A stretch of DNA of 64,000 nucleotides from Coffea arabica (lineage: Eukaryota; Streptophyta; Magnoliopsida; Gentianales; Rubiaceae): NCBI RefSeq assembly GCF_036785885.1, contig NC_092329.1, positions 1,550,001 through 1,614,000 on the forward strand, read 5' to 3'. A model generated the notes under the pieces. The model was given only the letters and a program-made list of their open reading frames with translations. It ran no database searches and was not told the DNA's origin. Positions 23,701 through 62,432 of the stretch are shown in pieces. Each line of letters opens with the position of its first letter. The first letter of the stretch is position 1. Position numbers and translations under genes: made by a program.

Positions 23701-26700
23701 GCAACTGATATCAGCAATGTGCTGCAAATTGATAGTATAAGGCATTAGAGTGCTAAAATTGATAGTTTAAGGGGCACAGAGAAGATTGTGATAGCACAAG
23801 GGTGCACATTGCAACTAACCAGTTCAAATGAAAAAGAATATTTAATATACCCCAAGGGGAAAAAGGATTAAATAATCACAGTGTTGAAAATCTAGAATAT
23901 CTTTTTCTATGTATATCCCATGATCTCTGCTATATCCCATGATTTCTGCTATATCCCATGATTTCTGCTCTATTTTAGGATAGAATAATTTACTCCTAAT
24001 GTATTTTAGGATAGAATAAATTAGCTCCTAATTTTTAGGAAATTACAGATTTCATGGAATTGACAAAAGTCCAATTCCATTTGTATAAATGTTGTACAGA
24101 GTCTAGAACAAAAGATATGACAGAACAATTCAGTTTTCTTTTTTGTTCATGGTATCAGAGCTTTTGCTCTTGGGACCTCTTCTTGTCAGCCTTCATTGCT
24201 GAGTGCTTTCCTCTCTTCAAGTCTTTATTGCCAAGTGCAATTTCCAGCCTTCATTGCTGATATTTTTCATTAGGCCTTCATTGCCAATTTTTCTTTGAAA
24301 CCTCCAACATGTCTGAAACTGAAACATCAGAAATCCACTCCAATACCAAATCAGAAGAGACCTCAAATATTCCACAAACAGGGGATTTGCAGAATATCCA
24401 GGCAGCCTACAGGCTCAACGGGAAAAACTATTTGAAGTGGTCACAATTTGTTCAAACATTTCTCAAAGGAAAGGGCAAAATCAGCCACTTGCTTGGAACT
24501 GGACCGAAAAAGGGAGATCCTAAATTCGCTGCTTGGGATGAAGAGGATTCTATGGTCATGTCATGGCTGTGGAACTCCATGTTACCTGAAATAAGCGATG
24601 CTTGCATGTTCCTATCAACAGCTCAAGATATATGGTCTACTATTCGACAGACCTATTCAAAGGCAGGAGATGCTGCCCTAATCTATGAGATCAAAACAAA
24701 GATCTCAGCCACTAAACAGGGCAACCTTTCTGTTACTCAATATGCCAACCTTTTGCAAAATCTATGGCAGGAACTGGACCAATATCGGTGTGTTCAGATG
24801 TTGTGTAGTGAAGATGCAGCCACCTTGAAAAACTTTATCGAAAAGGATAGAGTTTATGACTTCCTTGCAGGTCTGAATGTGGAATTTGATCAGGTCAGAG
24901 TCCAGATATTGGGGAAGGAAAGATTATCATCTCTGAATGAGACAATATCATTGGTTCGAGCTGAAGAGAATAGGCGAGAAGTCATGTTAGAGCCTAAAAC
25001 ATTAGAAGGCTCGGCAATGATTTCTACAAAGTCAAATAAAGACACAATTTGGTGCACGTACTGCAAAAAATCACGCCATACGCGAGATGATTGCTTCAAA
25101 CTCCATGGGAAGGAACAAGTCCTTAGTCGTAAAGGAGGATTCAAAGGGGGAAAAGCCCACTTAACTGCTGGAGAAGACCAAACACAAGAAAAATCCAACC
25201 AGACTGGTATGGGAGAATTCAAGAAAGAAGAAATCGACAAGCTAAGAAACCTCCTAAATTCCCTTGAAAAGTCCTCTAGTACGTGTTCATTGGCTCAATC
25301 AGGTAAGTACCTTAACTCTTATGCTTTAAGTGCCTCAAGCATGTCTTCTCTAGGCTCTTGGGTCATCGACTCAGGAGCTACTGACCATATGACTCACAGC
25401 CCAATCAGATTTAGAACATACAACCCATGTCCTGGAAATAGAAAAATTACTGTTGCGGATGGATCTCCTATAACTGTTGCAGGCCAAGGGACAGTAAATC
25501 TATCAAATTCTTTGTCCCTAAATAATGTGTTGCATGTCCCAAAATTGTCCTCCAATCTCATATCCATCCATCAAATTACCAAAGATCTGAACTGTAGAGT
25601 AATTTTCTATACTACTCACTGTGTTTTTCAGGATTTGGTTACGGGGAGGACGATTGGACTTGCTAAGGTGAATGACGGGCTTTATTACCTTGAGGAGATG
25701 AGTGGCAACAAGAAGAACAAAAATCAGTTATCCCTCACCTGCTCCTCAAATAATAAATCTGAAATTTGGCTTCATCATTTCCGTCTTGGTCATCCATCTT
25801 TTATGCTACTTAAAAGCATGTTTCCTTCACTTTTCAAGAATGAAGATGTTAGTAGTTTCCATTGTGATACATGTGAAATTGCTAAACATCATAGACTATC
25901 ATTTCCATTGAGTAATACAAGATCTACTAGACCTTTCTCTTTGATACATACTGAAATTTGGGGGCCTTGTAGAATTTCTAGTATTTCTGGAGCAAAATGG
26001 TTTGTCACATTCATTGATGATTGTACTAGAACTACTTGGTTATTTCTTATGAAAGAAAAATCAGAAGTAAGCAGTATTTTTCCAATGTTTCATAAAATGA
26101 TTTGTACACAATTTGGAAGTTTGATTAAAAGAGTAAGATCTGATAATGCAAGAGACTATTTTAATCAAATTCTCTCATCTTTTTTTCAAAAAGAGGGTAT
26201 AATACATGAGTCATCTTGTGTAGATACACCCCAACAAAATGGGATTGCTGAACGAAAAAATAGGCATTTACTCAATGTGACTCGAGCAATTTTGTTTCAA
26301 CATAAAGTTCCAAAAACTTTTTGGGGGGAGGCTGTTTTAACTGCTGCACATTTGATAAATAGAGTACCTTCAAAAGTACTAAATAATCAAAGTCCCATTG
26401 CTGCTCTTTCTGGTTTTTACCCTGATTTTAATGTCTCTTGCACATTGTCACCAAAAGTGTTTGGTTGTGTTGCTTTTGTACATGTTCATGCACACCAAAG
26501 AGGGAAACTTGATCCAAGAGCTTTAAAATGTATTTTTGTGGGATACTCAAACACAAAGAAAGGATATAAGTGTTATCATCCTCCTTCAAAAAAATTTTTT
26601 ACCTCTATGGATGTCACATTTGTTGAAAATGAACCTTACTCTCAAAGTAACAATCCTCATCCCCAGGGGGAGAGTTCTTGGGAAGATAAGGAATTTCTCC

Positions 26701-29700
26701 TTGATCTTCAAAGTTCTACACTAAACTTAAAGTCTTTCAAGCCGGACCATACACCAAATTCTAAAGGGGAACATACTAGCAGTGAACCTGAACCTGAATT
26801 TGAAGTTGAACATGCCAGTAAAGAAATTGAACCTGATCTTGGAGTTGAGGGAAAATCTGGTTTAAATCCAACTACACCACTCAAGGTCTACTCAAGGAAG
26901 AAAGTTCATATTTCTGAACCTGTGCAAATCCAAGAATCTGAACCACAATCAGGTACTGAAAATTCTGTTCCTTTGTGTGTTCAATCTGACTCTGCTCCTT
27001 GTGAATTTAATGATTTAGACCTGCCTATTGCTGTTCGAAAAGGAACACGAGAATGCACTAAGCATCCAATCTCAAATTTCGTGTCTTTCCATAGATTCTC
27101 TCCACAACATAAAACTTTCCTTACCACCATCAATTCTATTTCAATTCCACAAACACTACAAGAGGCACTTAGAAATAAGAATTGGTTACATGCTATGAAA
27201 GAGGAGATGAATGCCCTAGAGAGAAATAAGACTTGGGAAATTGTAAACCTACCCAAAGGAAAGAAAACAGTGGGGTGTAAATGGGTGTTTACTTTGAAAT
27301 ATAGAGCTGATGGTTCATTAGAAAGGCATAAAGCTCGGTTGGTCGCAAAAGGATATACACAGACATATGGGATAGATTACCAAGAGACCTTTGCACCCGT
27401 TGCAAAAATGAATACTGTGCGTGTTCTTTTGTCTTTAGCCGCTAACTTTGGTTGGTGTTTACAGCAATTTGATGTGAAGAATGCATTCTTACATGGGGAT
27501 TTAGAAGAAGAGGTGTACATGGAACCTCCACCGGGTTTTAATGAAATGTTTTTTGAAAAGAAAGTGTGCAGGTTAAAGAAAGCTTTATATGGATTAAAAC
27601 AATCGCCAAGGGCTTGGTTCGGAAGATTTACTAAAGTGATGTTAGCAATGCAATACAAACAAAGTCAAGGAGATCATACTTTGTTCATAAAACATTCAAA
27701 AGGAGGTGTTACAGCTCTACTTGTATATGTAGATGACATCATCATCACCGGGAATGATCCAATTGAAAGAGAAACACTCAAAAAGTGCTTAGCAAAGGAG
27801 TTTGAAATTAAAGAACTAGGGAGGCTGAAGTATTTTTTAGGCATTGAGGTGGCATACTCAAGAAAGGGCATCTTTGTTTCCCAACAAAAGTATGTCTTAG
27901 ACTTGCTTAAAGAAACAGGCAATCTTGGATGCAAGGCAGCAAGCACACCCATTGAGCCTAACTTGAGATTGAATGAAGGGAAGGATGATAGCACAGTAGA
28001 TAAGGGAAGATATCAGCGGTTGGTTGGGAAACTGATATACTTGTCCCATACAAGGCCGGACATAGCATTTGCTGTAAGTGTAGTAAGCCAATTTATGCAT
28101 GATCCAAGAGAGAAACACTTGCAGGCTGTCAATAGAATTCTATCCTACCTCAAAGGGACACCGGGTAGAGGAATTTTGTTCAAGAAAAATGAAGGATTGC
28201 TCATAGAGGCATATACTGATGCTGATTATGCAGGTTCTGTTGTAGATCGTAGATCAACTTCAGGATATTGTACATTTCTTGGTGGGAACCTAGTGACATG
28301 GAGGAGTAAGAAGCAATCGGTTGTTGCAAGATCAAGTGCTGAAGCAGAGTTTAGAGCTATGGCTCATGGAGTTTGTGAATTGCTATGGCTCAAAATAATA
28401 CTTGATGATCTTAAAATCAAGAGTGAAGGGCCTATGAAACTCTATTGCGACAACAAGTCTGCCATCAACATTGCACACAGTCCAGTGCAACATGATCGCA
28501 CAAAGCACATCGAAGTTGATAGACATTTTATTAAAGAAAAGCTGGACAGTGGCATGATTTGCACTCCATATGTAGCATCAAATAATCAATTGGCAGATGT
28601 CTTAACTAAGGGAATGCCAACTTCCAACTTTGAAGACATTACATGCAAGATGGGAATGGAAAATATCTATTCACCATCTTGAGGGGGAGTGTTGAAAATC
28701 TAGAATATCTTTTTCTATGTATATCCCATGATCTCTGCTATATCCCATGATTTCTGCTATATCCCATGATTTCTGCTCTATTTTAGGATAGAATAATTTA
28801 CTCCTAATGTATTTTAGGATAGAATAAATTAGCTCCTAATTTTTAGGAAATTACAGATTTCATGGAATTGACAAAAGTCCAATTCCATTTGTATAAATGT
28901 TGTACAGAGTCTAGAACAAAAGATATGACAGAACAATTCAGTTTTCTTTTTTGTTCACACAGAAACATCATTTGCTACTATTTTTCAGTTGCACATCTCT
29001 AATTTCAGTAAGAATTATGCATGATCTAAAATGCACTTTATATGTAAAGATCACTGCATTAAAGATAGTTGTTTCGACAAGTCATTTGACCACACATTTG
29101 GTCTCAGTGAAATCAGTGACACACAAATGGTGAACTGTTCAAGTATGAAGAAGCCTTAAAGTTGCTGAGGCAACAAGTTGGTTTAACAATGCTTATGAGA
29201 ACTTAAAAGAATAACATTCTGTATGACCATCAACTTCATTGGTGGATAATTTGATTCATAATTTTCTTTTCGATTTGAAATTTAATAAACCTAGAATATT
29301 TACAACATGCAGCACAACCACTGTTTTTACTTTTACATGGTTATTGAAAGTATTCATTGTATCAACAATTTACAAGCATCTAAAATACTCGACAAGGAAC
29401 CCTCTCTTTCAACAGGAGATGTCGCATTCTCTCTCTCTCTCAGAAAGCCAAAGAAAAGAATTTGACCCTAAAGGAGCATGTATAGGTTTCACCTTCTATG
29501 AATAGGTTAAGTATATAAGCAGAAAGCTGAACTACTATGTCATATAACACCCACCATATTAAATGACACCCTTCATCAATTTTACTTGAGATTTAAACTT
29601 TTGACAAGGCCGTTTTTAACCAGAAACAGAGATCCTAACTAAAAAATGTCAAATAACTATTGACATTAACTTTCATCCAGCAAAAGGAGAAAGGGATATG

Positions 29701-45334: not shown

Positions 45335-46096
45335 TTAAGGGTTGAAAAGGAGAACAGATCCTTCGGAGATGGTGGTTAGCCTGATCCTAAAGGAACGTAC
45401 AGCCATCTTAGCCCGCCGGGAAGACAATCTTTGGAGTACCGTCGGGCGGGGTGTGGAGGACAAGAGTGTTTGGTGTTTGTTACGAGTATGATTATTAATG
45501 TGCTGGAGTAGTGGCGGGGGAGGCTGAGCATGATCATCTTCGTGTTGGTGTCGTACCAGAAGCAGAGGAGAAATTCGAGATGGGTTGCGCTTGTGCTTGT
45601 GGTTGCGGGTGCTTCTTGTAATTGGAGGAGGAGGAGGATTATTAGTAGGTTTAAGGAGGATACTAGTAGTGGCAGTCTGAAGGGCGAGGGTAGCCTTGAC
45701 GGCGAGAGCAGCCATGTCGGAGGCAGATAACTTGTAGCGGAGCTTGGAGAGGGGGAGGAGGAAGTAGATCTGAGAAGGGTCGAGTTGGTCTTTAGGACGG
45801 AGGGCAGGAATAAACTGGTCAAAGTACAGGGAGTCGGAATTGCAGAGGAAGAATAGTGTTGCAGAGGAGGAGGAGGTAGGACTGGTAATGCTACTAGTAG
45901 AGGAGGAGGAGGAGGAGGAGGAGGAGGTTTCTGAGTCTAGAACTTGAGACGCAGTTATGGGAGTAGAGTAGTGGCGCAGGTCCCCATTGACTGAGACAAC
46001 GTAAGCAGGAGGCGTAGAATTGGATTTGTGGTGGCGTGCAAGTGATGCTGCTGCAGCGACGCCGCTGCTGCTGCTGCTGGAGAAACAGCTTCCCAT
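45335..46096 (-). CDS. DUF4228 (PADRE-type) protein, probably N-myristoylated
   Basis: A single-exon frame of 253 aa. It starts MGSCFSS: Gly2 fits N-myristoylation and Cys4 possible palmitoylation, so plasma-membrane attachment is likely. DUF4228 features are present: AYVVSVNGDLRHY near the start, FFLCNSDSLYFDQ, then LDPSQIYFLLPLSKLRYKLSASDMAALAVKA. A His/Pro-rich variable stretch follows and the C-terminus is basic (RLSSRRAKMAVRSFRIRL..ISEGS). Members are often induced by stress or pathogens; their molecular role is unknown. Poly-Ser tracts (TCC/CTC repeats at about 45890-45930) may vary in length. TATA-like ATATATAC on the minus strand near 46160-46172 lies about 65 bases upstream of the ATG. 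Confidence 0.88.
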   Translation of the reverse strand: MGSCFSSSSSSGVAAAASLARHHKSNSTPPAYVVSVNGDLRHYSTPITASQVLDSETSSSSSSSSSTSSITSPTSSSSATLFFLCNSDSLYFDQFIPALRPKDQLDPSQIYFLLPLSKLRYKLSASDMAALAVKATLALQTATTSILLKPTNNPPPPPITRSTRNHKHKRNPSRISPLLLVRHQHEDDHAQPPPPLLQHINNHTRNKHQTLLSSTPRPTVLQRLSSRRAKMAVRSFRIRLTTISEGSVLLFNP

Positions 46097-46506
46097 TTGC
46101 TGTCAAGGACAGCACAGAGAGAGATTGATGTTGATGAATGCGGAATGAAGCAAGCTATCTATGTATATATCCTTGTGGTAATTGCAAAATTTTGCTGCTG
46201 GTGCTGGTCCGGTAGCAGTACTAAGACCCTGAGCCGGGGGTTTTGGCGGCGTCTTGGGGAAGATATCTTCGATATGGGAGGAAAAATATACTATTAAAAA
46301 AAATGTTTGGATTTGAGCAAGTACATATATTGCTAAGGCGCTATATATGTAATGGCGCCGTGCCGTCCCCAGCAAGCAGACAGTAGGAGTAGAAGTAGGG
46401 GCTTTGGTGTGGGACCCAATCAGGCGCACGGTGACGGAAGTAAGCGCGTCAGAGATGAGATTAGTGAGATTCGATTCAATTCAATAGAATGGAAGAAGAA
46501 GAAGAT

Positions 46507-47675
46507 CCCTGTTTGGAAGCTTGGTTTTTTACCAAGTTTGTATAAAACTAGTTTTTTAACAACTTGTGCTACAGGAACCCCAAAAAACTTATCCAAAAAA
46601 CTTATAAAATTTTTAACCTACACACTTAAAATATCCAAAACACAACAAAAAAAAAAATTTTCCTTCCCCTTTTCTTCTTCTTCCTCTCCCACCACCACCT
46701 CCATTGCCGGCTCTGTCGCCGGTTCCCGCGTCAATTTCCGGTGCCGGTGCCGGTCTTCTTTTTTTTCCCCCTTTTTTCCCTCTCCCCCTCTTCCTCCCCT
46801 GCCATCATCCTCTCTTGTCTTTTTTTTTTTTCTCTCTACGTCCGGCACCATTCCCACCTCTCTGTGGGGAAAAAAAAAGAAAGAAAAGAAAGAGGATGAG
46901 AAGCGGGAAGGGGACAGGGAAGGCGGGGGTGGCGGGGCAGAGGGGGGCGGCAGGGGGAGGGGGAAGGTGCAGAGGGGGGCGGCAGGGGGAGGGGGAAGGC
47001 GGGGGGAGTGGGAAGGGGCAGAGGGGGCGGCGGGGAGAGGGGGAAGGGGCAGAGGGGGGCTGCGGGGGAGGGGGAAGGCGGGGCAGAGGGGGCGCGGGGG
47101 GAGGGGGAAGGGGCAGAGGGGGGCGGCGGGGGGAGGGGGAAGGCGGGGGGAGTGGGGAGGGGGAGAGGGGGCGGCGGGGGGAGTGGGGAGGGGCAGAGGG
47201 GGCGGCGGGGGGAGAGGGAAGGAGGGGGGAGGGGGATGGGGCAGAGGGGGGCAGGGGCAGGGGGAAGGCGGAAGACGGGGGGAGGGGGAAGGGGCAGAGG
47301 GGGGCTGCGGGGGGAGGGGGAAGGCGGGCAGAAGGGGCGGCGGGGGGAGGGGAGGAGAAGGGGAAAGGGAGGAGAGGGGTGGCGGTTGCTGGCAGGCTGC
47401 TGGGGGTGGCGAAGGTAACGGGGAAGAAGAAGAAGAAGAAGAAGAAGAAGAAAAAGAGAAGAAAGAGGAAAGAAAGAAAAAGAAAAAGAAAGGGAAAGAG
47501 AAAAAAAATAGAAAAGGAAAAAAAAAGAAAAAAGAAATTTTTCACCTTACAAAAACTTCTACAAAATTTTTCATCTTACAAAAATTTCTTTCTACAAAAT
47601 TTTTTCAAAAACTTCTACAGTACACTACAGTAAAATTTTAGACAAACTCCCAAAAAACAGCAACCCGTCTGGGTT
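46507..47675. mobile_element. Non-autonomous TE-like unit with a GC-rich purine-strand core
   Basis: The left end starts CCCTGTTTGG and continues through AGTTTGTATAAAACTAG. The right end read in reverse gives CCCAGACGGG then AGTTTGTCTAAAATTTTAC, so the ends are loose inverted copies. Both subterminal regions are rich in ACTTATAAAATTTTT / AAATTTTTCATCTTAC type sequence. The core (about 46870-47540) is almost pure G/A on the plus strand. Target duplications were not found, and no protein is encoded. The similar terminus inside the YjbQ-like gene at 7190 supports a dispersed family. Confidence 0.5.
46884..47540 (+). repeat. G-rich minisatellite followed by GA-rich tract
   Basis: Degenerate repeats of GGGGAGGGGGAAGG, GGCAGAGGGGG and GGCGGGGGGAG types fill 46920-47400. 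(GAA)n and A/G-only sequence follow to 47540. Many GGG/GGGG runs with short loops make G-quadruplex formation on the plus strand likely. The long Arg/Gly-rich frames on both strands are by-products of the composition. Confidence 0.9.
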
Positions 47676-48169
47676 GATGATAAGTCTTCCGCTTCCCGTC
47701 TGGGTTTGGTCGTCAACAAGCAACGCTAATCGACTTTTATTTATGGTCCGATCGAGGAGGTGGACTAGTTTACTCATTGCTAAGTACTGTAGCAGCAACC
47801 TTTTTGCCAAGAAACAAAAATGAGTCCTCAGCGATGACGTCCGTTTCCCCCCCTCCCCCCCTCCTCTCTTTGCGGTGCTTTCTTGCTTGCAATCTTTGAC
47901 CAGCTGACGTACCTGCTTGCATCGCCCTTTCCTCAATCAGCTCTCAATTTCATTCCCCGCCCAAGCTTCCTCCAATTACCTGGAACCAACATCACCAGCC
48001 ACAGCCCCAGCTCCATGCATTCCTCCTAATTAGTTGTAACTACCTACTAATTAGTTATCAGTTATCAGCAGGCCGTTGAACAAGTCTAAATAATTTCTCC
48101 CATATACACACACGCACGTGTATGTAATTGGAGTTGTCATCTTCACTATTGGTGGGGATTACTTATAAT
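47676..48169. other. Intergenic; no gene seen
   Basis: The 12-base CCCGTCTGGGTT at 47664-47675 recurs at 47695-47706. Otherwise nothing is recognised. Confidence 0.4.
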
Positions 48170-49033: not shown

Positions 49034-51013
49034 TTGTAATGTTCATCTTAACAACTTTTTGAAAACTTGACGTTCTTTTCTTATATTAGTATTTCTTTCA
49101 ATTTTTATTTGTCTATCTTTTCTATTTCTTTTTTTTTTCTAAATCAAAAGTAATATTAATTGAAAATGAAATCGTCTATCAAATTATGATAGTTAGTTTC
49201 GCAAATCCAAAAATTCAAAAAACTTTAAAAGAATTGTGATGATATTTTCTTTTTCAGTTTACAAAAATACATATCCTCCAGTACTCACCATTAAAAGAAG
49301 TTTTATCATATAGTGGTAGAAGTAGAACTATTGTCATAATTGATTATCAATAATAAATATGGTATTGAAAACTTGAGTTCTTTTCTTGTATTTATGTTAA
49401 ATATATTATAATTATTTTTTAAAGTGATTTAAATATTACAAGTTGAGGCTATTTTAGGGTATTCATTTTTTTTATCAAATCTAAAGTTTAATTAGCAAAA
49501 GCGTCGAATTATGAGAGGTAGATGTAATTTTTGACACAGCTCAATTACTTAAGTCGTACTCCTGTTATGTTTCTCTTCTTATTATTACTTAATAATTCGT
49601 GTTCGTGCTATACTGCTCATACAGTAAGGACAGGTACTGTTTCTTTCACTCGCCCAACCCAGATTTGAGAAATGCATCTAACCACAATGCCCACTTTTTT
49701 TTTTTTTTTTTTTTTTATGGCATGGGCCTCTTCTTTGGGTGACCGGATTTGTGCACACTATTAAAATAAGAGCCGTGGACTCCCAATTCACCAATGAGAC
49801 CGACGGAAAGGAAAATGTTCAGCGGGCCATGCATGTTTTAACTTTTTAAGGAAGGGAAAAAACACAATTGAAATTATACAATCCTCAAAATTTTTAAATT
49901 TTTTTTTTTTGAATCAGTTATTTGTCCTCTCAATTTGCTACCCAGGGTCTTGCACTGGACAAAGCTACTTGCTTTTCATCAACTATTCCAAATGAGGACA
50001 CATATGATTTACTTCTGCTTTGGAAAACGGAGAGAGATTTTTATGGGTTTTGGGCTCGTCTTTCTGTCTCGAGTGAATCTTCCCAACTTAAAAAGCACCT
50101 GCCAGAAGAAAAACGCTTGCGAAATTGTAGCTGTGCCCGCAGGCGCAACAAACTGTCGGAGTTATCCTTGGGACGAGTCCCTCCCGCTCCCTACTCTCTT
50201 TCGTCTCTTTGTGTTTGGCTGCTTGCTAAGTAGTAACTGCGACTGAAATACATAATTCGGGTTCTGCCGCCTGATTTGACAACCGTTAGAAGCCGCAACA
50301 TTCTGCCAGCCCAGGAGCTGACTACCCCTACGGCAATCAATGCACCCTGACCTTTTGGCATCCAATCTTTCGGGGCTATAAATACAGCCAATTTCCGTAC
50401 TTATCTAGGGTTTTTAACTCTCGAACTTCCAACCTTATCTAGTCTAGGTCTCTAACTTTGACATCGGAGCTATTTCGGAAGACGAGCCCGGCTCCCTTGT
50501 CTTTTTCAGCTGTGTTCAGTTCACAGGTTAGAGACTCGGCTCCGATAGTTCCTTTTTGCTTGCACCGTAGCCTACCTACAACATTCTTCCTCCTCCTTTC
50601 ATCTTTCAGTTTCAGGAGGAAGAATAAGAATATCTTTATCTTTACATACACATAAGAAGCACTTTGTCTTTCTACAGTGGTGCTGCTTTCAACTGCAACT
50701 CTGCTTCCACGGCTTGTACTTTCGGCTGCTGCTCTTTGCTTCAAACTCTTGTACATTCATTGAAATGGGCATTCAACAGCCGCGAATTTGGATTGTTTTT
50801 TGTTCTGATGCTTGTGGAGTTCGGTTTTATACTTATATATATATATATATATATATAGATATTATTATAGATATATATTATAGATAAAAAATATATATAT
50901 ATATATATTGTAGTTTTCAAGTGCATCGGGAGTGCTTCCAGATGCTGTACTTTCGACTTGTTTTGGACGTTCCACTGCACATTCACCTTTGCTTGAAACT
51001 TTAGAAACTCTTG
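49034..51013. other. Repeat-flanked region with no recognised gene
   Basis: Contains a T run (49688-49714), two overlapping unrecognised 103-aa frames (49922-50246), a TATA-like CTATAAATACA at about 50375-50385 and a TA-rich tract (50830-50910). Nothing supports a real gene. The stretch 50640-51000 could belong to the flank of the downstream Helitron. Confidence 0.4.
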
Positions 51014-52552
51014 TATATTATTTTTTGTATTTTTTGTATGTATACAGAATATAAAAATCTATACAAAATATTTCAACAAAATTTCTCATAAACACCTCTA
51101 AAAATAACTAATTTAGACAAGATTTATGTATCAATAGGTACATATAGTAGATATATATACATACAATTATAGATAAGTCTGACTTTCATATGTCTTAATA
51201 CTTTCTAAAAATATCCTATAAACAAATTTTTAAAACACTGCTAAAAATACCTAATTTAAACGGGATCCATATATATTTGTTTATCTATATATCAATAAGT
51301 ACATGGATTTGTGTATACAATTAAAATCTGCATTTATTCTTAAATACTTTCTAAAAACATTATAACAAAATTTCTGAAAAACACCCGTAAAAATAACTAA
51401 TTTAGACAGCATTTATGTATATGTTTATATTTGTGTATCAATAATCAATAAGTTTATTAGTGTATCAATAATCAATAAGTACATATAGATATTATAATAC
51501 ATACATAGATATATATATATGAGTATATTATTTTTTGTATTTTTTGTATGTATACAGAATAAAAATCTATACAAAATATTCCAACAAAATTTCTCATAAA
51601 CACCTCTAAAAGTAACTAATTTAGACAAGATTTATGTATCAATAGGTACATATAGTAGATATATATACATACAATTATAGATAAGTCTGATTTTCATATG
51701 TCTTAATACTTTCTAAAAATATCCTATAAACAAATTTTTAAAACACTGCCAAAAATACCTAATTTAAACGAGATCCATATATATTTGTTTATCTATATAT
51801 CAATAAGTACATGGATTTGTGTATACAATAAAAATCTCTATTTATTCTTAAATACTTTCTAAAAACATTATAACAAAATTTCTGAAAAACACCCGTAAAA
51901 ATAACTAATTTAGACAGCATTTATGTATATGTTTATATTTGTGTATCAATAATCAATAAGTTTATTAGTGTATCAATAATCAATAAGTACATATAGATAT
52001 TATAATACATACATAGATATATATATATGAGTATATTATTTTTTGTATTTTTTGTATGTATACAGAATAAAAATCTATACAAAATATTCCAACAAAATTT
52101 CTCATAAACACCTCTAAAAGTAACTAATTTAGACAAGATTTATGTATCAATAGGTACATATAGTAGATATATATACATACAATTATAGATAAGTCTGATT
52201 TTCATATGTCTTAATACTTTCTAAAAATATCCTATAAACAAATTTTTAAAACACTGCCAAAAATACCTAATTTAAACGAGATCCATATATATTTGTTTAT
52301 CTATATATCAATAAGTACATGGATTTGTGTATACAATAAAAATCTCTATTTATTCTTAAATACTTTCTAAAAATATTGTAACAAAATTTCTGAAAAACAC
52401 CCATAAAAATAACTAATTCAGACAGCATTTATGTATATGTTTATATTTCTGTATCAATAATCAATAAGTTTATTTGTGTATCAATAATCAATAAGTACAT
52501 ATAGATATGTAATACATACATAGATATATATATATATATATATATATGAGTA
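51014..52552. repeat. Higher-order tandem repeat, 508-510 bp unit, three copies
   Basis: Copies start at 51014, 51524 and 52032, each with TATATTATTTTTTGTAT. Copies 2 and 3 are nearly identical. Each unit contains three diverged submonomers headed by AACAAAATTTCTCAT, AACAAATTTTTAAAA and AACAAAATTTCTGAAA. These lie at 51075, 51221 and 51364, with the next unit at 51583 (spacing 146, 143, 219). The sequence is AT-rich and non-coding; the two identical 67-aa frames in it are repeat copies. Confidence 0.9.
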
Positions 52553-53280
52553 AACAAGTATCTATATGTTTATCTATATGCACTAATAAGTACATAGTAC
52601 ATATAACTACTTTTTTTATATATATAAATATGTGTGATTATAGATAAGTTTCGCTTTCATATGTCTGAATACTTTTTAAAAATATCCTACCAACAATTTT
52701 TCAAAACACTGTAAAAAATAGCTAATTTCAACGGGATTTATATATGTCTTTATATATATATCAAAAAATAAGTACATGGATAATTATAATTATAGATAAA
52801 TCTGAGTATTATATTATTTTATAACTCTTGTATATTATTTTTTTTATATACAATAAAAATCTTTACAGAATATTCTAAAAGATAATCTAAAAATTAGTTT
52901 GAATTTTTTGAAAAACTTTCTAAAAACATTCTCAAAAAAATTTTCAAAAACACCCCTAAAAGTAACTATGGTAGACACCATTTATATGTATATGTATACG
53001 TTTATATATATATATATATATATAAGATATAATAAAATAAGTATCATAAATTAAATATAAGTACATAGATAAATGTGATTGTAGATAAGTCCCACTTTTA
53101 TATATTGTGTATATGAATAATAATCAATATAATAAGTATCATAAATTAAATATAAGTACATAGATAAGTGTGATTGTAGATAAGTCCCACTTTTATATAT
53201 GTTAGAAATATATAAACACGTGTGTATGAAGAAGTACAAGCTATGCAGATACATAGATAATTGTGATCTCACAGAAATAG
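52553..53280. repeat. Degenerate monomers and a 95-bp tandem duplication beside the 508-bp array
   Basis: Diverged submonomers continue (for example CAACAATTTTTCAAAACAC near 52690 and AAAAATTTTCAAAAACACC near 52936). GTATCATAAATTAAATATAA and the following 45 bases occur at 53041 and again at 53136, a 95-bp spacing. Confidence 0.75.
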
Positions 53281-53982: not shown

Positions 53983-56900
53983 ATGAAATCCTCTGAGTTA
54001 TATGCACAAAACGATGATCTCAAAATCCGTGAGAAAAAAAATGAAAGAAATAAAAAAGCTAGAGAAAAATTTGCTGCTCTTTTTGTCGAACAAAAGGAAA
54101 CTCATCGAAGAAAAAATAGAGAAGCGTATCACAGAAGAAAGATGACCAAACTATTGTCCAAGACGCTTGATCCAGAATTTGTACAGCCTACCAAAGAGTC
54201 GAATATCAAACCTCTTTTCAGACCAGCCAGTACCAACAATAATAATGATGGTACGTATATACTCCAACACAAAGCTTACAAACATTTTTAGTTTGCAGTT
54301 TCTTTGACTGAAAATATGAAACAATGAAAATATGTATTATTATACACAGGAGTGCTAATGCCACAGTTAATTGAGCAGCATCTTCATGACACAGGTATAT
54401 ATCTTGAGGTTCACCTACTTTTTTTTTCTCATATTATTACATTCCTATTCACTTTTTATCTCTTAAACATTCCTTTTCTCTTGTTATACTTATATTGACG
54501 TTTAAAGCCCCAAAAATTGCAGTTGCAAAATATGATAGAAGTACACTTGCTGGAACATCTGATACAAATGTCACCACAGCTCTTTTTTCTAATCTTCAGT
54601 TACCTAGCTCCAAGTATCAGAGTAACAATGGTAAACTTCAACAAAATATCCCTCTGTATCAATGTCAGAGTAACAATGTTTTCCATATTTCCTATTTTTT
54701 TTCTTACTGTTTGCTTCAGAAATGCATTATACTGGTTTGTCCAGACTTAACTTTGGAAATACCTGTTTCTTTTCCACATGACATACATACAAATTGTTAT
54801 CTGCATTTACAAGGTCTATCAATTCACGTAGGCAGTCAATGCAATCATGATAAACACCCAATTCTTCTTGATATCCAAAACTATCATAATAATATATTTC
54901 TTGTTCCCTAATATAATCAGCTATTTACTTTTTTGTATGCCACAGATAATCAATTCTGTGTATCGCACCCTGGATCAAATCTCAAGAATAGTCTCTTTTG
55001 CTTTTCTACTTATGAAGAAGGTCTTCATTTCTATCATCTTCGTGTAAACATAATTGGTTCTATGACAATTGTTATTTCAGCTACATAACTGAGCTTTTCT
55101 TAATTTTCTAAAACCTAGGTAATTGTTCAGGCACCAACCACAAGCATATATGCTCGGATAGTGGTGCACAGCATGACAAAGGTCTGAAACTACTGCAAAT
55201 AACTTGTTCTTTAATTCTTTCAAACAATCTTAAGCACAAAAATAAACTGTTCAATATATGATGCTTTACTATGTTCTTCTCACTCTTCCACTATCATTTA
55301 TTTACATTGCATCAACAGCTAAATCCTTCATGTGTATGAACTGCTTCAAATTTCTTCCCCAAAACATAGAAGATGCTCCAGGTAGTTGACACTGTTAACA
55401 ACTTTAGGTATACAAGATTCTACTCAATCGTATTTAACATCTACATATATTTCTTTTCTTTACAATACCATTGATTGCACAACTTTGCCTTTCTAGAATT
55501 GTTAGCATTTGCAAAGGAATATCAAGTCAGCCAACAATGCTTAAAATCTATTGCTAAAACACAAAAAGGTACAGATACAACCTCAATTATTAATTTTCAT
55601 CATCTAATGATCATTAGATTAAGCCTTTGTATACTAAAGTCAATTATGTTCTATTAACTTCACACAGGCAACAAACGTTCAAGGTCAGCAAGAACTCAGA
55701 AACCTCACAACAGAGGTATAGAAACAAAAAGTCTTATTAATGTAACATGATATTCATTCAAAACTTTTTTGTCATTCTTTTTTTTATATTCAATAATTAC
55801 TATTACATTCATTGTACTGTAGGTGGAAAAATTCCAGATGGAATTGAAGCATTGAAATGCATCAGCAATGAACCAGATATACTGGCTCCCAAACCAGATT
55901 GCAGCTACTGCGAAGCAAAAAAACTTCACTCTGAAACACCAAATTTCTGCTGCTCTGCTGGTCAGATAGTTCTCCAAGAGAACAAATTTTCATATATTCT
56001 CATCGAACTATATACTGGTCATTCTGCTGAAGCTCTTTCTTTCAGAACATATGTCAGAACATACAATAACATGTTTGCCTTCACCTCTTTCGGAGTACAT
56101 TATGACAAATCCCTATGTAGAAGAACTAATGGTATCTACACATTCAAAGTCCAGGGACAAACCTATCACTTCATCAAGGATCTTATTCCACATGAGCAGA
56201 AAACTGTTTATTTGCAGCTATATTTTCATGATACGGAGCACGAGTTAGAAAACAGACTGGCTACATCAGAAAAGCTAACAGAGAGTGCGGTGAAAAAGAT
56301 TATGCATGTCATGGAATCCAACCCCTATGCCTCTTTTCTGCGAAGCTTAAAAAATGTTCCGAATCTTGACTCATATCAGATTGTCTTAAAGTCTCACTCA
56401 GAGAATGACCAGAGAGTTTGGAATCAACCAACTGCATCCCAAATTGCAGCCTTATGGGTAGAGGGCCAAGAATCTGGAGAAGGATACAAAAGGCACATCC
56501 AAATCTATACTAAAGAAGGCAAAGATCATCTGGTGCAATATTATTATGGATGCTATGATCCATTGCAGTATCCGCTACTGTTTCCATTTGGAGAGACAGG
56601 ATGGCATCCTGGTATAAAAAGAATAGCACCACATAATGCAAACAAAAGATAAAGATCCAATAGAACAGGCAACTGCTCTGCTGCTTTTACTAATTGCACA
56701 TCTGCAGAAGAACTAATAGGAGCTGAACACCAAGGTATGGCAAAAATTATAGTAAATAATTATATTCCCCAATATACAGTTACTATATCATTAGATTGAT
56801 ATTGAATAACATGTCCTACAGCTTCTGACAATCCTGAAAACAATAAAGAGTTTGTATCTATGCGTGAGTATTACGCATACAAGTTGCAGATGCAAGAAAA

Positions 56901-59900
56901 GTACACTCCAGGCATACTCAACACCGGCCGACTACTTCAATAATATGTCATCGATATGTATATCAAAATAGAATCCCAGAGGCTTGACTATTACAGAAGC
57001 CGACAACAGTTAATAAGAAGAGAGGAACTTCAAGGCATAATGGACAGTGTCATCGCAGGACATTGCCAAGGATCCAAAATAGGTCAGCGAGTTATCCTTC
57101 CAGCATCATTCATAGGTGGTCCTCGCGACATGAGAAGAAGATATGTTGATGCTATGGCTCTCGTGCAAAAATTTGGCAAACCAGATCTATTCATCACTAT
57201 GACATGCAATCCTTCATGGCCTGAGGTGAAAAAACACATGCTCCCTACTGATGAAAGTCATAACAGACCAGACTTATTGGCTCGAGTTTTCCATGCTAAG
57301 CTTGATCTTCTGAAAGAGCAACTCTTCAAGAAACAAATATTTGGATCAGTCGCAGCATATACCTATGTTGTTGAGTTCCAGAAACGTGGTCTACCGCATG
57401 GTCATTTCCTCATAATCCTAGAGGCAGCTTCAAAACTTTATTCCACAGAATCTTATGATAAAATCGTCAGCGTAGAAATTCCAGTTATAACAGCAAATCG
57501 ACATTTATTCAGTATGGTTCGAAAGCACATGATCCATGGTCCTTGTGGAGCACAAAATCCAGATAATGTTTGTATGCAAGGAAATCAGAGGAAAAGATGC
57601 AGAAATAATTATCCAAAACCATTTGCTCAGACAACCTTTCATGGCAAGAACGCGTATCCTACTTACCGAATGAGAAATGATGGACAGAAAATAATGGTTT
57701 GTGGCCATCAGCTTGATAACAGATGGGTTGTTCCACACAACGGATACTTATTAGCAAAATTTGATTGTCATATAAATGTCGAAATCTGCTCCACTGTGAA
57801 AGCTGTCAAATACATATACAAATATATATACAAGGGTCATGATAGGATTCATTTCAGAGTAAACTCAGATAGTTGTGCTGAAGGCAATAATAACTCTCAA
57901 TCTCTTCCAATCGATGAAATAAAGGACTTCCAATCAGCTCGATGGGTGTGTGCAGTTGAAGCAATTTGGAGAGTATTCAGATTTAACCTCAGTGAAATGC
58001 ACCCTTCTGTAATTCATCTCCAACTTCATTTACAAAACTGTCAATCCATGAGCTTTACACCTGATCAAGACCTACGGGATGTAGTCAGAAACAAGTATAG
58101 AAAGAGAACCATGTTAACAGAATTCTTTTACATGAATTCTATGGACAAATGAGCTCAGCATCTTAACTGTACATACAAAGAATTCCCAGAGCACTTCGTT
58201 TGGTACCCCGGAAGGAAGAAATGGGAACCTAGAAAGCAGAAGGACTGTATTGACAGAATTGTCGCAGCAAGTATAAAAGAAGGAGAACATTATTTTCTTC
58301 GACTACTCCTAACACATGTTAAAGGCCCCAAATCATTTGAAGACCTCAAGACTTTCAATGGAACATACGTCAACACATTTCGTGAAGCAGCAATTTTCAG
58401 AGGATATTTTGAATCAGATACATCACAAGAAAAATGCCTTGAAGTAGCCAGTTCATATCAAATGCCATACATATTGAGAAGGCTGTTCGCAACTCTGCTG
58501 GTACATTTTCCTCCATTAAATGCTAGAAAGCTATGGAAAAAATTTGAATATTGTCTATCAGAAGATTTCATCAAAATATCAGAAATATCAACTGATGAAA
58601 TACGATACAAGGTTCTTGAGCAGATAAACAGTTTTCTTGAATCAATGGGAAGAGATATCAACTCATATGCCCTGGTTCCATATCCTCTAAATTTTAATGA
58701 TCTGAACAAGAACACGAGGGACACAATAGCAGAAACAAGAATTACTGTGCTAGAGTCTGATCTCCAAAGAATTGATCAATTAAACAATGATCAGAAAATT
58801 GCCTTTGATATAATCACTCATGCAGTATTCCAGGAAAAACATGGATGCTTTTTTGTTGATGGACCAGGTGGAACGGGAAAAACCTTCCTCTATCGAGCAT
58901 TATTAGCTGAGGCAAGATCCATAGGATTCATTGCGCTGGCTACAGCATCATGCGGATTAGCAGCTTCAATATTGCCTGGTGGAAGAACAGCTCACTCAAG
59001 GTTCAACATACCACTAGATACAACAAAAAATAAGAATTGCAGAATCAGCAAACAAAGTTCATCGGCAGAACTTCTGCAAAAAGCCAGTCTTATAATTTGG
59101 GAAGAAGCTCCAATGACAAATAAAAGTTTAATAGAAGCTGTTGATAGATTACTCCAAGATCTAATGGACTCGAACGCCTTATTTGGATCCAAAGTAATCG
59201 TTTTCGGAGGAGATTTTCGACAGGTATTACCAGTTATTCCTAAGGGCACAAAATCAGAATTCATTTATGCCAGTATAGTCAAATCATATATATGGCCACA
59301 CCTCCACAAGCTTCAACTCACAGAAAACATGAGAGCAAGGGATGATCCAGAATTCATTGAATATTTGCTCCGTGTTGGAAATGGAACAGAACCTACTGTC
59401 AACAATGACTGTATACAAATACCTCCATCAATGCTGATAAGATATACAAATGATGAAGATTCAATCAAAGAGCTGACTACCACGGTATTCCCAGATTTGA
59501 CAATATTCTCTCATCATGATTTCTCGGCTGTAAACCGTGCTATACTCACAACAAAAAATGAGTTTGTTGATCAGATTAATCAGCAGCTCATACACCATAT
59601 GCCTGGTCGAATTCAAGAATACATTAGCCGAGACAAATGTATTAAGGATTCTGACCAAACAATCATGGAGGACTTCATAAACGCCCTAACACCAAATGGA
59701 TTTCCACCTCATAAATTGATTCTGAAGCCAAACACTCCAATTATGCTACTCAGAAACATTGATCCATCCCAAAGACTATGCAATGGGACAAGGCTCATCT
59801 GCAAATCTTTAAACTCCAACGTCATACATGCAACAATAAGTTGTGGAGAATTCACTGGCAAAGAAGTCTTCCTTCACAGAATCTGCTTCAGAATAGAAAA

Positions 59901-60180
59901 TGATCCAGAGTCACCAGTATCTTTTGAAAGAATACAATTTCCTATTCGACCATGCTACGCCATGACTATAAATAAGGCTCAAGGGCAGACCCTAGATTTT
60001 GTGGGAATATATTTACGTGAACCAGTTTTTTCACACGGCCAGTTATATGTAGCAATGTCAAGAGCCAAGAACAAGACTTCAATAAAAATTCTGATCAAAC
60101 CAGCTATATTCAGCACTGGAGTAGACTCAATAACACATAATGTAGTATATAGAGAAGTATTAGATTTGGCAAATGAATAG
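53983..60180 (+). pseudogene. Helitron Rep/PIF1 helicase (RepHel), three in-frame stops
   Basis: Start ATG 53983 (MKSSELYAQN, then a basic Lys/Arg-rich region). Small exons follow: 54350-54394, about 54523-54630, 54946-55020, 55119-55181, 55370-55381, 55497-55568 and 55668-55715. The main exons are 55823-56734 and 56822-60180. The Helitron-like N-terminal domain includes CCSAGQ and FPFGETGWHPG. The Rep domain includes QKRGLPHGHFLIIL (HUH motif) and AVKYIYKYIYKGHD (paired tyrosines). The helicase has Walker A GPGGTGKT, IIWEEAPM, GGDFRQVLPVIPKG, and a C-terminal QGQTLDF ... YVAMSRAKNKTS. Stops interrupt the same frame at 56650-56652 (TAA), 56941-56943 (TAA) and 58150-58152 (TGA). There is no frameshift across more than 4 kb, so decay is recent. 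Exon boundaries in the N-terminal part are inferred; one exon near 54814 is unresolved. Confidence 0.88.
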
Positions 60181-60283: not shown

Positions 60284-62432
60284 GACGACAGAAAAGTCAT
60301 AGGATTTGCTGAGATCGTCCCCGGACTTCAATACTAGACAACGATAGTCCAAGTCCTTGATAAGCAGAAACCCCTACTATCAAAAGCAGTAAATCGTTAT
60401 CAGAAGCTTACTCTGATTGATAACCAGGTAAACACAGTAATAAATTCTGCCACAGAGTTATCATGCCTCACTGTACACATTCGCATTCTAATCAAAACCA
60501 AATTTCATGTATAGGGCATTACAGTGGAAGTTATGATATACAAGTCAGATATAGAATTCTTTCGCAACCACTTCAACCTGTACAGACGTTACATGGTATC
60601 CAATGCAAGAGTTGAATACACTCCGCCGGAATACCGTGCACATGAAAATCAATGCACCTGGTATATTGACAACTCTACTGTTGTCCAAGCAATCGATGAA
60701 GCAAGCTCTCCAGAAATTCCCCCTGTTTTCACATTCACACCTTTCAGAAGATTCTATCAACACATTGATGACGCTTCAGACATAGGTAATGCACAAAAAT
60801 TAAATTCAGCTCTATTATACTCAATACATGACTACTTAGTTTACCTTTGATAAATGACAAAAACAGATACCCTTGGCATTGTTACACAAATTCATCCGCG
60901 AAATCACAGAGGACCTACCCCAACCAGAGAGATTGTGATCATAGATAACAGGTAACTTGCATCATTTATCAACCAATGGCTTTACACACAACACAATCTT
61001 CATTTTAACACATATACAACAATGCCAGCTAAATATCTAACCAACTGTATTGCAGCTTCATGCCAGTCATCTTAACTCTGTGGGGTGAGCATGAAACAGA
61101 TGAAGGGCAGACTATTGCAAATATCATTCAATCAATGCCACTCATTGTCGCACTTCGAGTGAAAGTCTCATCCTATCACAGTAAGTAAACCACAAAATAT
61201 TACAACTGAATCATTTATACAGTCCATCATTTTTTAATACACATAATGTTTCAACTCTGAATCTATCAACAAAGTTTGGCTCAAGTATTTTGGTGAACCC
61301 TCCTATACAACAAGGTGCCTCACTGAAACAATGGTAACCACTTGCTCCCATACAAACCCACCAACTGTTGCCATACAAATATCTTCAAAATACTTTAACA
61401 GCTAATCATCACCATCTCCTTACAAGGGCTGTGGAAAACAAGTCACAAATTACTGAGCTCATCGCACAAAAAGCATACTGTGATCGAGCAAAACTCCTAC
61501 CACAACCCTCCGAAGATGAGCTCTGCACAATCGCAGAGTTCCTAAAATTCCCAACGGTAAGATTCTACAACTTTGACATCCACACTTCTCTACTGATCAC
61601 ACCTGCCACAAAATTAACCAGTTGATAATATATTTTATTCTCAGAAAAAAGCTTATTGGATTCAAGGAACTCCACGATTTCTTGACAGAAGCCAACACCT
61701 ATGGTATAATGCATGCTCAAACTGCCATAAATCATTCAGAGCAAAACCACTCTGAAAAATTATCTGCACTTCTTGCAATAAGCAAGTGAATGTCATTCCA
61801 AGGTAACTAACAGAACAACAATATTATAAGTTATTCCACCACTCATTACTGCACTAATATCTAATTTCTATTGCAGATGCAGATTAACCATAGAGCTGGC
61901 TGACTACTCTGGAATGCTCACACTTGATCTATACGACAATGATGCAGAGCAACTATTGCCCTTCACTCTACTTCAAATTCAAGAACTTGAAGACAAGGTT
62001 AGTACATCCCCAGCACTAAAATTTATTAACCTCCAGTTACACAATAATTGCCATACATTCTATCAACTAATACTCAAATATCAATATTACAGCATCAACT
62101 CAACTACATTGCTATTGAAGAAGCTATTGAAAGCACCATTCTGACTTGCTTTGTGAAAAAAATGATGGGAAACCGTGGATCTGGGGACACAGAAAAATAC
62201 ACAACCATAATAGTGCACAAAGCAAATGCTGCAGAAAATCATATCAAAGACTTCTACAACTCCAGCATCAGTTGGTACTTCCTCTACATGCCCTTCCTCG
62301 ACTCCAGGACCATCAACTGCAGAGGCTGTCCCAAAACCCACAACTTTCGACAGCAACTTATTCACAGCGCTCAAAATTACAGAGAGTCCAACTAAGAGAC
62401 AGCGCACTGACGTGACTGATATGGAGCAGTAG
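60284..62432 (+). pseudogene. Helitron RPA-like single-strand DNA-binding protein, broken
   Basis: Exons read in order: 60284-60427, 60515-60785, 60867-60951, 61056-61180, 61275-61333, 61427-61556, 61645-61802, 61877-61997 and 62093-62432. OB-fold type sequence is visible (TIVQVLDKQ ... YQKLTLIDNQ; IVTQIHPRN ... REIVIIDNR; VILTLWGEHE). A C4 zinc finger follows (CSNCHKSF ... CTSCNKQ), then a DNA-binding C-terminal fold (LADYSGMLTLDLYDNDAEQLL) and a Ser/Thr/Pro tail ending TKRQRTDVTDMEQ. Breaks: TAG at 60335-60337 in a place where related proteins carry Trp, TGA at 61753-61755 inside the zinc finger, and a one-base frame change near 62225-62250. Such proteins are thought to coat single-stranded DNA during Helitron replication or capture. 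Confidence 0.8.

Follow-up and report, generated by a model that had tools for sequence, protein, structure and literature searches.

We consider it likely that the RepHel gene in one group of Helitrons of Coffea arabica has an N-terminal part with a real and inherited exon-intron structure of an unusual kind, serving as a conserved frame-neutral spacer. Between a basic start exon and the core, which comprises zinc, Rep and helicase parts, five to seven exons are predicted, most of them 45–120 nt long, and all introns between them would be of phase 1. These introns would be mostly short (about 75–140 nt, with a few of 190–530 nt), and splicing would join the exons into a fast-evolving, probably disordered N-terminal linker that carries one conserved CxxC segment. 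As every exon is of the symmetric class 1-1, the resizing, loss or gain of an exon could be tolerated without harm to the frame of the downstream enzyme, and this tolerance may be the reason why the layout has persisted. The uniform phase itself could have arisen by biased intron gain or from an old history of exon duplication. The stretch analysed, here called the window, comprises 64,000 nt of the C. arabica assembly GCF_036785885.1 (NC_092329.1, positions 1,550,001–1,614,000, forward strand), and the genome searched was that same assembly (1.198 Gb in 131 contigs).

The gene that hosts the array is a Helitron RepHel, as it encodes both a Helitron-type Rep and a PIF1-family helicase. The Rep part of the window copy matched the Pfam family Helitron_like_N at 6.8e-53, and directly downstream, on the same strand, lies the match to PIF1 (1.4e-71) together with Pif1_2B (2.4e-14). 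Helraiser (PDB 7lcc) aligned to the window Rep with an E-value of 2.9e-105 over query residues 1–401, including the segment pairs GLPHGHFL/GLPHAHIL and VKYIYKYIYKG/VKYLFKYIYKG. We take GLPHGHFL and VKYIYKYIYKG to be the HUH and two-Tyr motifs. The core open reading frames of the window copy end or begin at stops (56652, 56943 and 58152) and the Rep frame is broken; by eye, an in-frame stop also lies in an RPA exon near 61646–61802. Going by its sequence, the window copy is not expected to yield a full transposase. Relatives with an open core frame are present in the same genome, and in these the open frame holding the Rep domain exceeds 1100 aa, which would give room for Rep and helicase both. 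Searches of viral contigs with the helicase found no relative, and an Rfam search of the window gave no match.

Copies of the element share homology upstream back to about position 50630 of the window. In this upstream part, at 51013–52781, there are tandem copies of a repeat of about 510 bp that are about 90% alike; related repeats stand upstream in other copies of the same family (family A, see below), so they seem to be part of the Helitron 5′ region. Elsewhere in the window we noted by eye a young Copia-like LTR element (23880–28957) with 270-bp direct repeats that are 100% identical and an open frame of 1473 codons, flanked by minus-strand open frames that resemble one gene for a TPR protein. 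At 46000–48000 the sequence is of low complexity and differs from the remaining window in being GC-rich (52%) and in its Gly/Arg-rich open frames.

DNA matches to the helicase part numbered 381 candidates in the genome, 40 of which were scored and were 100% to 68% identical (window included); for Rep domains, 150 of 763 candidates were scored. From the 40 helicase matches, 36 upstream stretches were fetched (one match is the window and three rows were left out). A recognisable start exon or core was missing in four of them (L015, L020, L022, L044), and 32 have both; the diverged L019 and L021 were kept out of the alignments. The aligned set therefore consists of 30 relatives plus the window, in families A (window and 9), B (12) and C (9). 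Two sets of Helitron matches are equally spaced triplets (G000:C16:748473, 757039, 765605, spaced by 8,566 bp; G000:C8:523936, 540862, 557788, spaced by 16,926 bp), which suggests Helitrons arranged head to tail in tandem. The predicted parts of the gene are collected in Table 1.

Table 1. Predicted exons of the RepHel gene and parts of the element in the window copy (lengths in nt; rows are aligned sequences)
Feature	Position in window	Strand	Basis or conservation
Start exon E0, 268 nt, Lys/Arg/Glu-rich, ends in phase 1	53983..54250	+	ATG; donor GATG/gtacgt; aligned length 268 in 24/31 rows (families A, B, C)
Mini-exon 1, 45 nt, phase 1-1	54350..54394	+	45 in 10/10 family-A rows
Mini-exon 2, 108 nt, phase 1-1	54523..54630	+	108 in 9/10 family-A rows; 110 in L009
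Mini-exon 3, 75 nt, phase 1-1, ends ...FSTYEE/G	54946..55020	+	75 in 9/10 family-A rows
Mini-exon 4, 63 nt, phase 1-1, Cys/His-containing	55119..55181	+	63 in 10/10 family-A rows
Mini-exon 5, 63 nt, phase 1-1, SFMCMNCFKFL (CxxC)	55319..55381	+	63 in 30/31 rows of A, B and C; 62 in L017
Mini-exon 6, 72 nt, phase 1-1	55497..55568	+	72 in 9/10 family-A rows
Mini-exon 7, 48 nt, phase 1-1, Lys/Arg-rich	55668..55715	+	48 in 9/10 family-A rows
First core exon, zinc-ribbon-like CxxC...CC, entered in phase 1	55823..56652	+	ORF list; aligned in 11 sequences, families A–G
Rep (HUH endonuclease) part, stops at both bounds in this copy	56944..58152	+	Pfam; Helraiser 7lcc; ORF list
PIF1-type helicase part	58153..60180	+	Pfam PIF1; scored genome matches
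RPA-like second gene, decayed here	60285..62395 (start approximate, by eye)	+	Pfam, weak: Rep_fac-A_C 0.053

The relatives carry most of the evidence for these borders. Across the mini-exon cells of the alignments (reference rows included, the 51-nt candidate discussed below excluded), AG precedes the exon in 189 of 196, GT follows it in 188 and both are in place in 182; the family length is kept in 184 cells, and 185 contain no stop. For the introns, 127 of 205 non-reference cells have the same length as the reference. Among the most diverged family-A rows (L016–L018), length is kept in 17 of 21 exon cells vs 4 of 24 intron cells. The relatives place the exon borders much more securely than the window could by itself.

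All seven small exons of the original prediction, which had been drawn from the letters of the window, are found there as described, with AG before, GT after, a length divisible by three and an open frame in phase 1. One extent is better read differently: according to the relatives, its exon of 12 nt (55370–55381) would be just the last 12 nt of mini-exon 5. The phase-1 segments had been picked by eye, and we therefore used a semi-Markov gene decoder that allows introns in all three phases; its codon usage was learned from the Rep-helicase core, and its splice-site frequencies are rough. Applied to the window alone, it gives the mini-exon 5 acceptor at 55370 a weight of 0.46 and that at 55319 a weight of 0.29, so that the case for the 63-nt form comes from the relatives. 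For mini-exon 2 the decoder prefers another in-frame acceptor, at 54508 (0.725); 12 of the 15 nt between 54508 and 54523 are absent in L016 and L018, which favours 54523. The in-frame alternative acceptors that receive decoder weight are 54508/54523, 55119/55131 and 55497/55506. Extra exons at 54720–54734 (a decoder suggestion) or 54720–54764 were rejected, as their acceptor AG is present in just 2 of 10 family-A rows. The base composition follows the exon model: with mini-exon 5 taken as 63 nt, T makes up 27% of the mini-exons vs 40% of the introns between them, and GC 38% vs 29%. Plant exons are generally poorer in T and richer in GC than introns.

On the window, the best decoder path contained only phase-1 introns at four settings and at three further ones, and 14,907 of 15,310 sampled introns were of phase 1. 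For comparison, the stretch from start exon to core was shuffled with dinucleotide frequencies kept, 150 times at each of three settings. No shuffle matched the real score (e.g., 33.9 vs a mean of 20.7 and a maximum of 28.1). The shuffle paths averaged 2.6–2.9 introns; 2, 3 and 3 of them per setting had at least six, and none of these was all phase 1. The first donor and the last acceptor pin phase 1 at the ends, so shuffles lean towards phase 1 too (mean share 0.79–0.90). The score by itself is unspecific, since of 102 stretches taken from elsewhere in the window 61 equal or exceed it; at least six introns were called in 46 of these stretches, in no case all of phase 1.

The same uniformity was obtained from the relatives. 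When a minimum exon length was set and 200 paths were sampled per locus, the phase-1 share was 1702/1707 for the window, 1579/1582 for L023 (family B), 1466/1476 for L038 (family C) and 1192/1199 for L047 (family F). A first run had covered 16 of the 36 fetched relatives, and the best path was all phase 1 in 11 of these 16; the remaining five (L016, L017, L040, L041, L043) all carry stops or one-base exon changes. Decoded on its own, the diverged L019 gave 161 of 200 sampled paths with phase 1 throughout. The decoder is able to leave phase 1, as it calls a phase-2 intron in L046 and mixed phases in an intact RPA gene.

This RPA gene (L049) belongs to the same intact family-B element as the RepHel gene of L023. 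Its introns decode as phases 0,1,2,1,2,0,0, and the sampled introns as 605/396/429 in phases 0/1/2, whereas the N-terminal introns and the core intron of the L023 RepHel are all phase 1. The phase pattern hence belongs to the RepHel gene and not to the decoder or to the element. RPA exons could be decoded in both the window and L049, and the peptide is RPA-like by eye, the best Pfam match being the weak one of Table 1. In relatives with an open frame, the intron between the zinc exon and the Rep exon is likewise of phase 1 (L023:4450-4679, L031:4696-4877). The core intron of L038 is phase 1 as well, alongside a call of an extra 72-nt phase-2 intron within the core exon that we regard as spurious, the frame being open there.

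Exon number and exon size differ between families while phase 1 is kept in nearly all introns of intact members. Counted between start exon and core, there are 7 mini-exons in A, 6–7 in B and C, 5 in F, 1 each in D and G and none in E. Given as exon lengths in nt from the start exon on, the layout is 268, 45, 108, 75, 63, 63, 72, 48, core in family A; 268, 87, (51), 120, 63, 63, 78, 63, core in family B; 268, 72, (51 or 12), 120, 57, 63, 78, 63, core in family C; and 193, 90, 72, 63, 18 or 63, 72, core in family F (L047), where the acceptor of the 63-nt form (1786–1848) weighs 0.44 vs 0.555 for that of the 18-nt form. Mini-exon 2 is the most lineage-variable one, with 108 nt in A vs a 51-nt candidate in B and C. 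This candidate, which in B lies between the first and the second assigned exon, has a length of 51 and no stop in 12/12 B rows, AG in 10/12 and GT in 12/12; in C, 51 nt are kept in 9/9 rows (one with a stop) and AG in 4/9, and in the five C rows without this AG, use of another in-frame AG inside the candidate would shorten it to 12 nt. Its position suggests that it may be the counterpart of mini-exon 2 of family A.

Within families, exon length changed 12 times, always breaking the frame, so in-frame resizing is visible only between families. One-base length changes in the Lys/Arg-rich last mini-exon (L023:3383-3445 and equivalents) occurred in 5 of 21 B/C rows (L030, L035, L043, L036, L040) and are perhaps due to slippage in an A-run. 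Three near-identical relatives (L031–L033), in which the donor of mini-exon 1 is lost, count as a single event; their Rep-domain frame is open over 1164 aa. Such a loss can be absorbed owing to the 1-1 phase of the exon, and mini-exon 1 would be skipped in the RNA of these copies.

The outlying families show a different organisation. D (L045) reads 808, 69, core and G (L048) 502, 153, core, all in phase 1; E (L046) has one exon of 776 nt, with a phase-2 intron leading in and a phase-1 intron leading out. One continuous coding exon in relatives, which the original prediction had listed among the observations that would speak against it, is thus found in L046 and nearly so in L045 and L048, all outside the group with the array, and the array is not universal among the Helitrons of the C. 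arabica genome. In an unrooted tree built from 11 sequences of the first core exon, a branch with a support of 99 splits off D, E and G; the remaining set of A, A′, B, C and F is a clade or not according to where the root lies. The two C sequences of this tree fail to group (support 41). Given the common ancestry of A, B, C and F, their phase pattern counts as one evolutionary observation, not four.

Selection was assessed mainly between L023 (family B) and L038 (family C). dN/dS was 0.08 for the Rep exon, 0.14 for the zinc exon, 0.25 for the start exon and 0.45 for the pooled mini-exons (145 codons, Fisher p 0.0007), with values for single mini-exons between 0.12 (the CMNC exon) and 1.15 (mini-exon 1). 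The CMNC exon, i.e., mini-exon 5, is also the best-conserved mini-exon in diverged comparisons. Within families, the values for the mini-exons were 0.62 (window/L011), 0.89 (L023/L029) and 0.72 (L038/L032), and substitutions had scarcely any third-position bias; the pairs L023/L037 (0.82) and L038/L036 (0.74) were not used, being partly out of frame through one-base changes. Taken together, these values indicate an array that is translated but weakly constrained and, the CxxC exon excepted, evolves in the manner of a spacer; parts of it are nearly unconstrained.

According to the original prediction, any of the exons could be skipped, duplicated or swapped without consequences for the frame. 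In-frame loss and resizing are indeed possible in principle and exon number differs between families; swapping was not borne out, B and C being collinear. These two families align exon for exon. Between A and B, the anchors A3–B2 and A5–B4 (0 of 300 shuffles) and A6–B5 (0.01) follow in the same order, A3–B2 joining a 75-nt to a 120-nt exon and A6–B5 one of 72 to one of 78 nt; the matches of A4 are ambiguous (B3 0.037, B5 0.02), and for A1 and A7 no exon of B stands out as the partner. No swap in exon order was seen between relatives where order can be judged (B vs C and the A vs B anchors). The proposed variation of exon number and order at constant phase between copies therefore holds for number, and phase 1 is kept in nearly all introns of intact members; order is collinear wherever it can be judged. 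For an origin by duplication there are weak hints: the lowest values of exon-pair similarity were 0 of 200 shuffles for A6/A7 and 0.01 for A1/A5 (21 pairs) and 0.005 for B1/B4 (15 pairs), uncorrected for the number of pairs.

We also searched the genome with the joined exons of L023 (537 nt), obtaining 32 first-look candidates and 186 matches. The matches listed are single-exon pieces; none of them covers two whole exons (the longest has about 140 of the 537 bases), as an intronless spliced copy would, and the longest pieces listed end within about 20 bases of the predicted borders. This search is also a weak test for captured host exons, of which the matches listed gave no sign.

How the layout is to be understood is a separate matter. 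The closest competitor of a persisting frame-neutral spacer holds that these are ordinary constitutive introns whose common phase came about by historical accident or through biased intron gain, with a frame neutrality that brings no benefit. It overlaps with our preferred explanation in anatomy and differs on why the layout persists, and we give it a substantial chance, somewhat short of even. The collinear exon order agrees with it, and so does phase 1 in the pre-core intron of the array-less families D, E and G and in the core intron of L023, L031 and L038 (the last with the extra call mentioned above), as the gene may simply favour phase 1. The changes in exon number between families and the splice-site loss in L031–L033 that leaves the core open count against it. 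A wider version of the spacer idea, in which the N-terminal region of RepHel forms a frame-neutral exon bay, its division into phase-1 mini-exons being maintained because it lets exons be lost, gained, resized or skipped over evolution, perhaps even per transcript, with the enzyme unharmed, is a tentative idea that we think rather doubtful. The two uses envisaged originally, namely product diversity from programmed isoforms and harmless capture of host exons, are unsupported.

Programmed alternative splicing that gives several N-terminal isoforms of the transposase appears unlikely to us. Every exon is compatible with use as a cassette and in-frame alternative acceptors do receive decoder weight, but chance alone would put about a third of such acceptors in frame, and the conservation of exons and splice sites in B and C fits constitutive use. 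Much less likely still are mini-exons taken from host genes. Helitrons are known to capture gene fragments. However, the same exons recur in B and C and partly in A and F, with no change of order where this can be judged, and the matches listed for the joined query are exon pieces as expected of Helitron copies (with the Rep gene checked at some of the places). That the array is an artefact of chance splice-like sites in an AT-rich stretch is barely credible. AG/GT pairs enclosing in-frame openings are common and single exons have several alternatives, yet shuffles, relatives and selection all speak against it, and the relatives come close to refuting it.

The array provides a countable case in which the intron phase of a transposase N-terminus stays fixed while exon number and size change, with the RPA gene of the same kind of element as the contrasting gene. 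It also makes testable the idea that a frame-neutral exon structure helps transposons to survive the decay of splice sites. For annotation it is a warning, as plant RepHel genes may hold about 150–160 residues in exons below the reach of similarity searches.

Runs of symmetric class 1-1 exons between phase-1 introns are a feature of shuffled modular proteins of animals. There they correspond to shuffled or duplicated domains, whereas in the coffee array the exon order seems constant and there are no more than weak hints of duplication. Our search of the open-licence literature, a weak test, found no description of phase-1 mini-exons in a Helitron. The bat Helitron Helraiser, whose Rep core (7lcc) is homologous to that of the coffee element, has a disordered stretch of 110 residues at its start, according to the wheat Helitron report (PMC13286980). 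Another multi-exon Helitron gene of plants is the RPA gene of Mothra in rice, whose annotation was revised by the authors from four exons to eight (PMC4683698); it is an RPA and not a RepHel gene, and the coffee RPA has mixed phases. The nearest parallel is the RepHel of wheat Feng8 (Xuan-Feng Helitron family), for which the same report describes seven exons with RNA-seq support, a large N-terminal domain that precedes the Rep core, a motif resembling a zinc finger (Arg311–Val337) and, for the first 264 residues of the N-terminal domain, predicted disorder except for two helices (PMC13286980). Feng8 resembles the coffee RepHel in being a multi-exon plant transposase with a big N-terminal region and a zinc-finger-like motif, and its predicted N-terminal disorder agrees with the spacer-like evolution of the array. 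Compared with the seven exons of Feng8, family A in coffee has about ten, seven of which are shorter than 125 nt and all bounded by phase-1 introns. A multi-exon RepHel in plants is already known, and what appears unusual is the uniform, inherited layout of phase-1 mini-exons in an ordinary Helitron.
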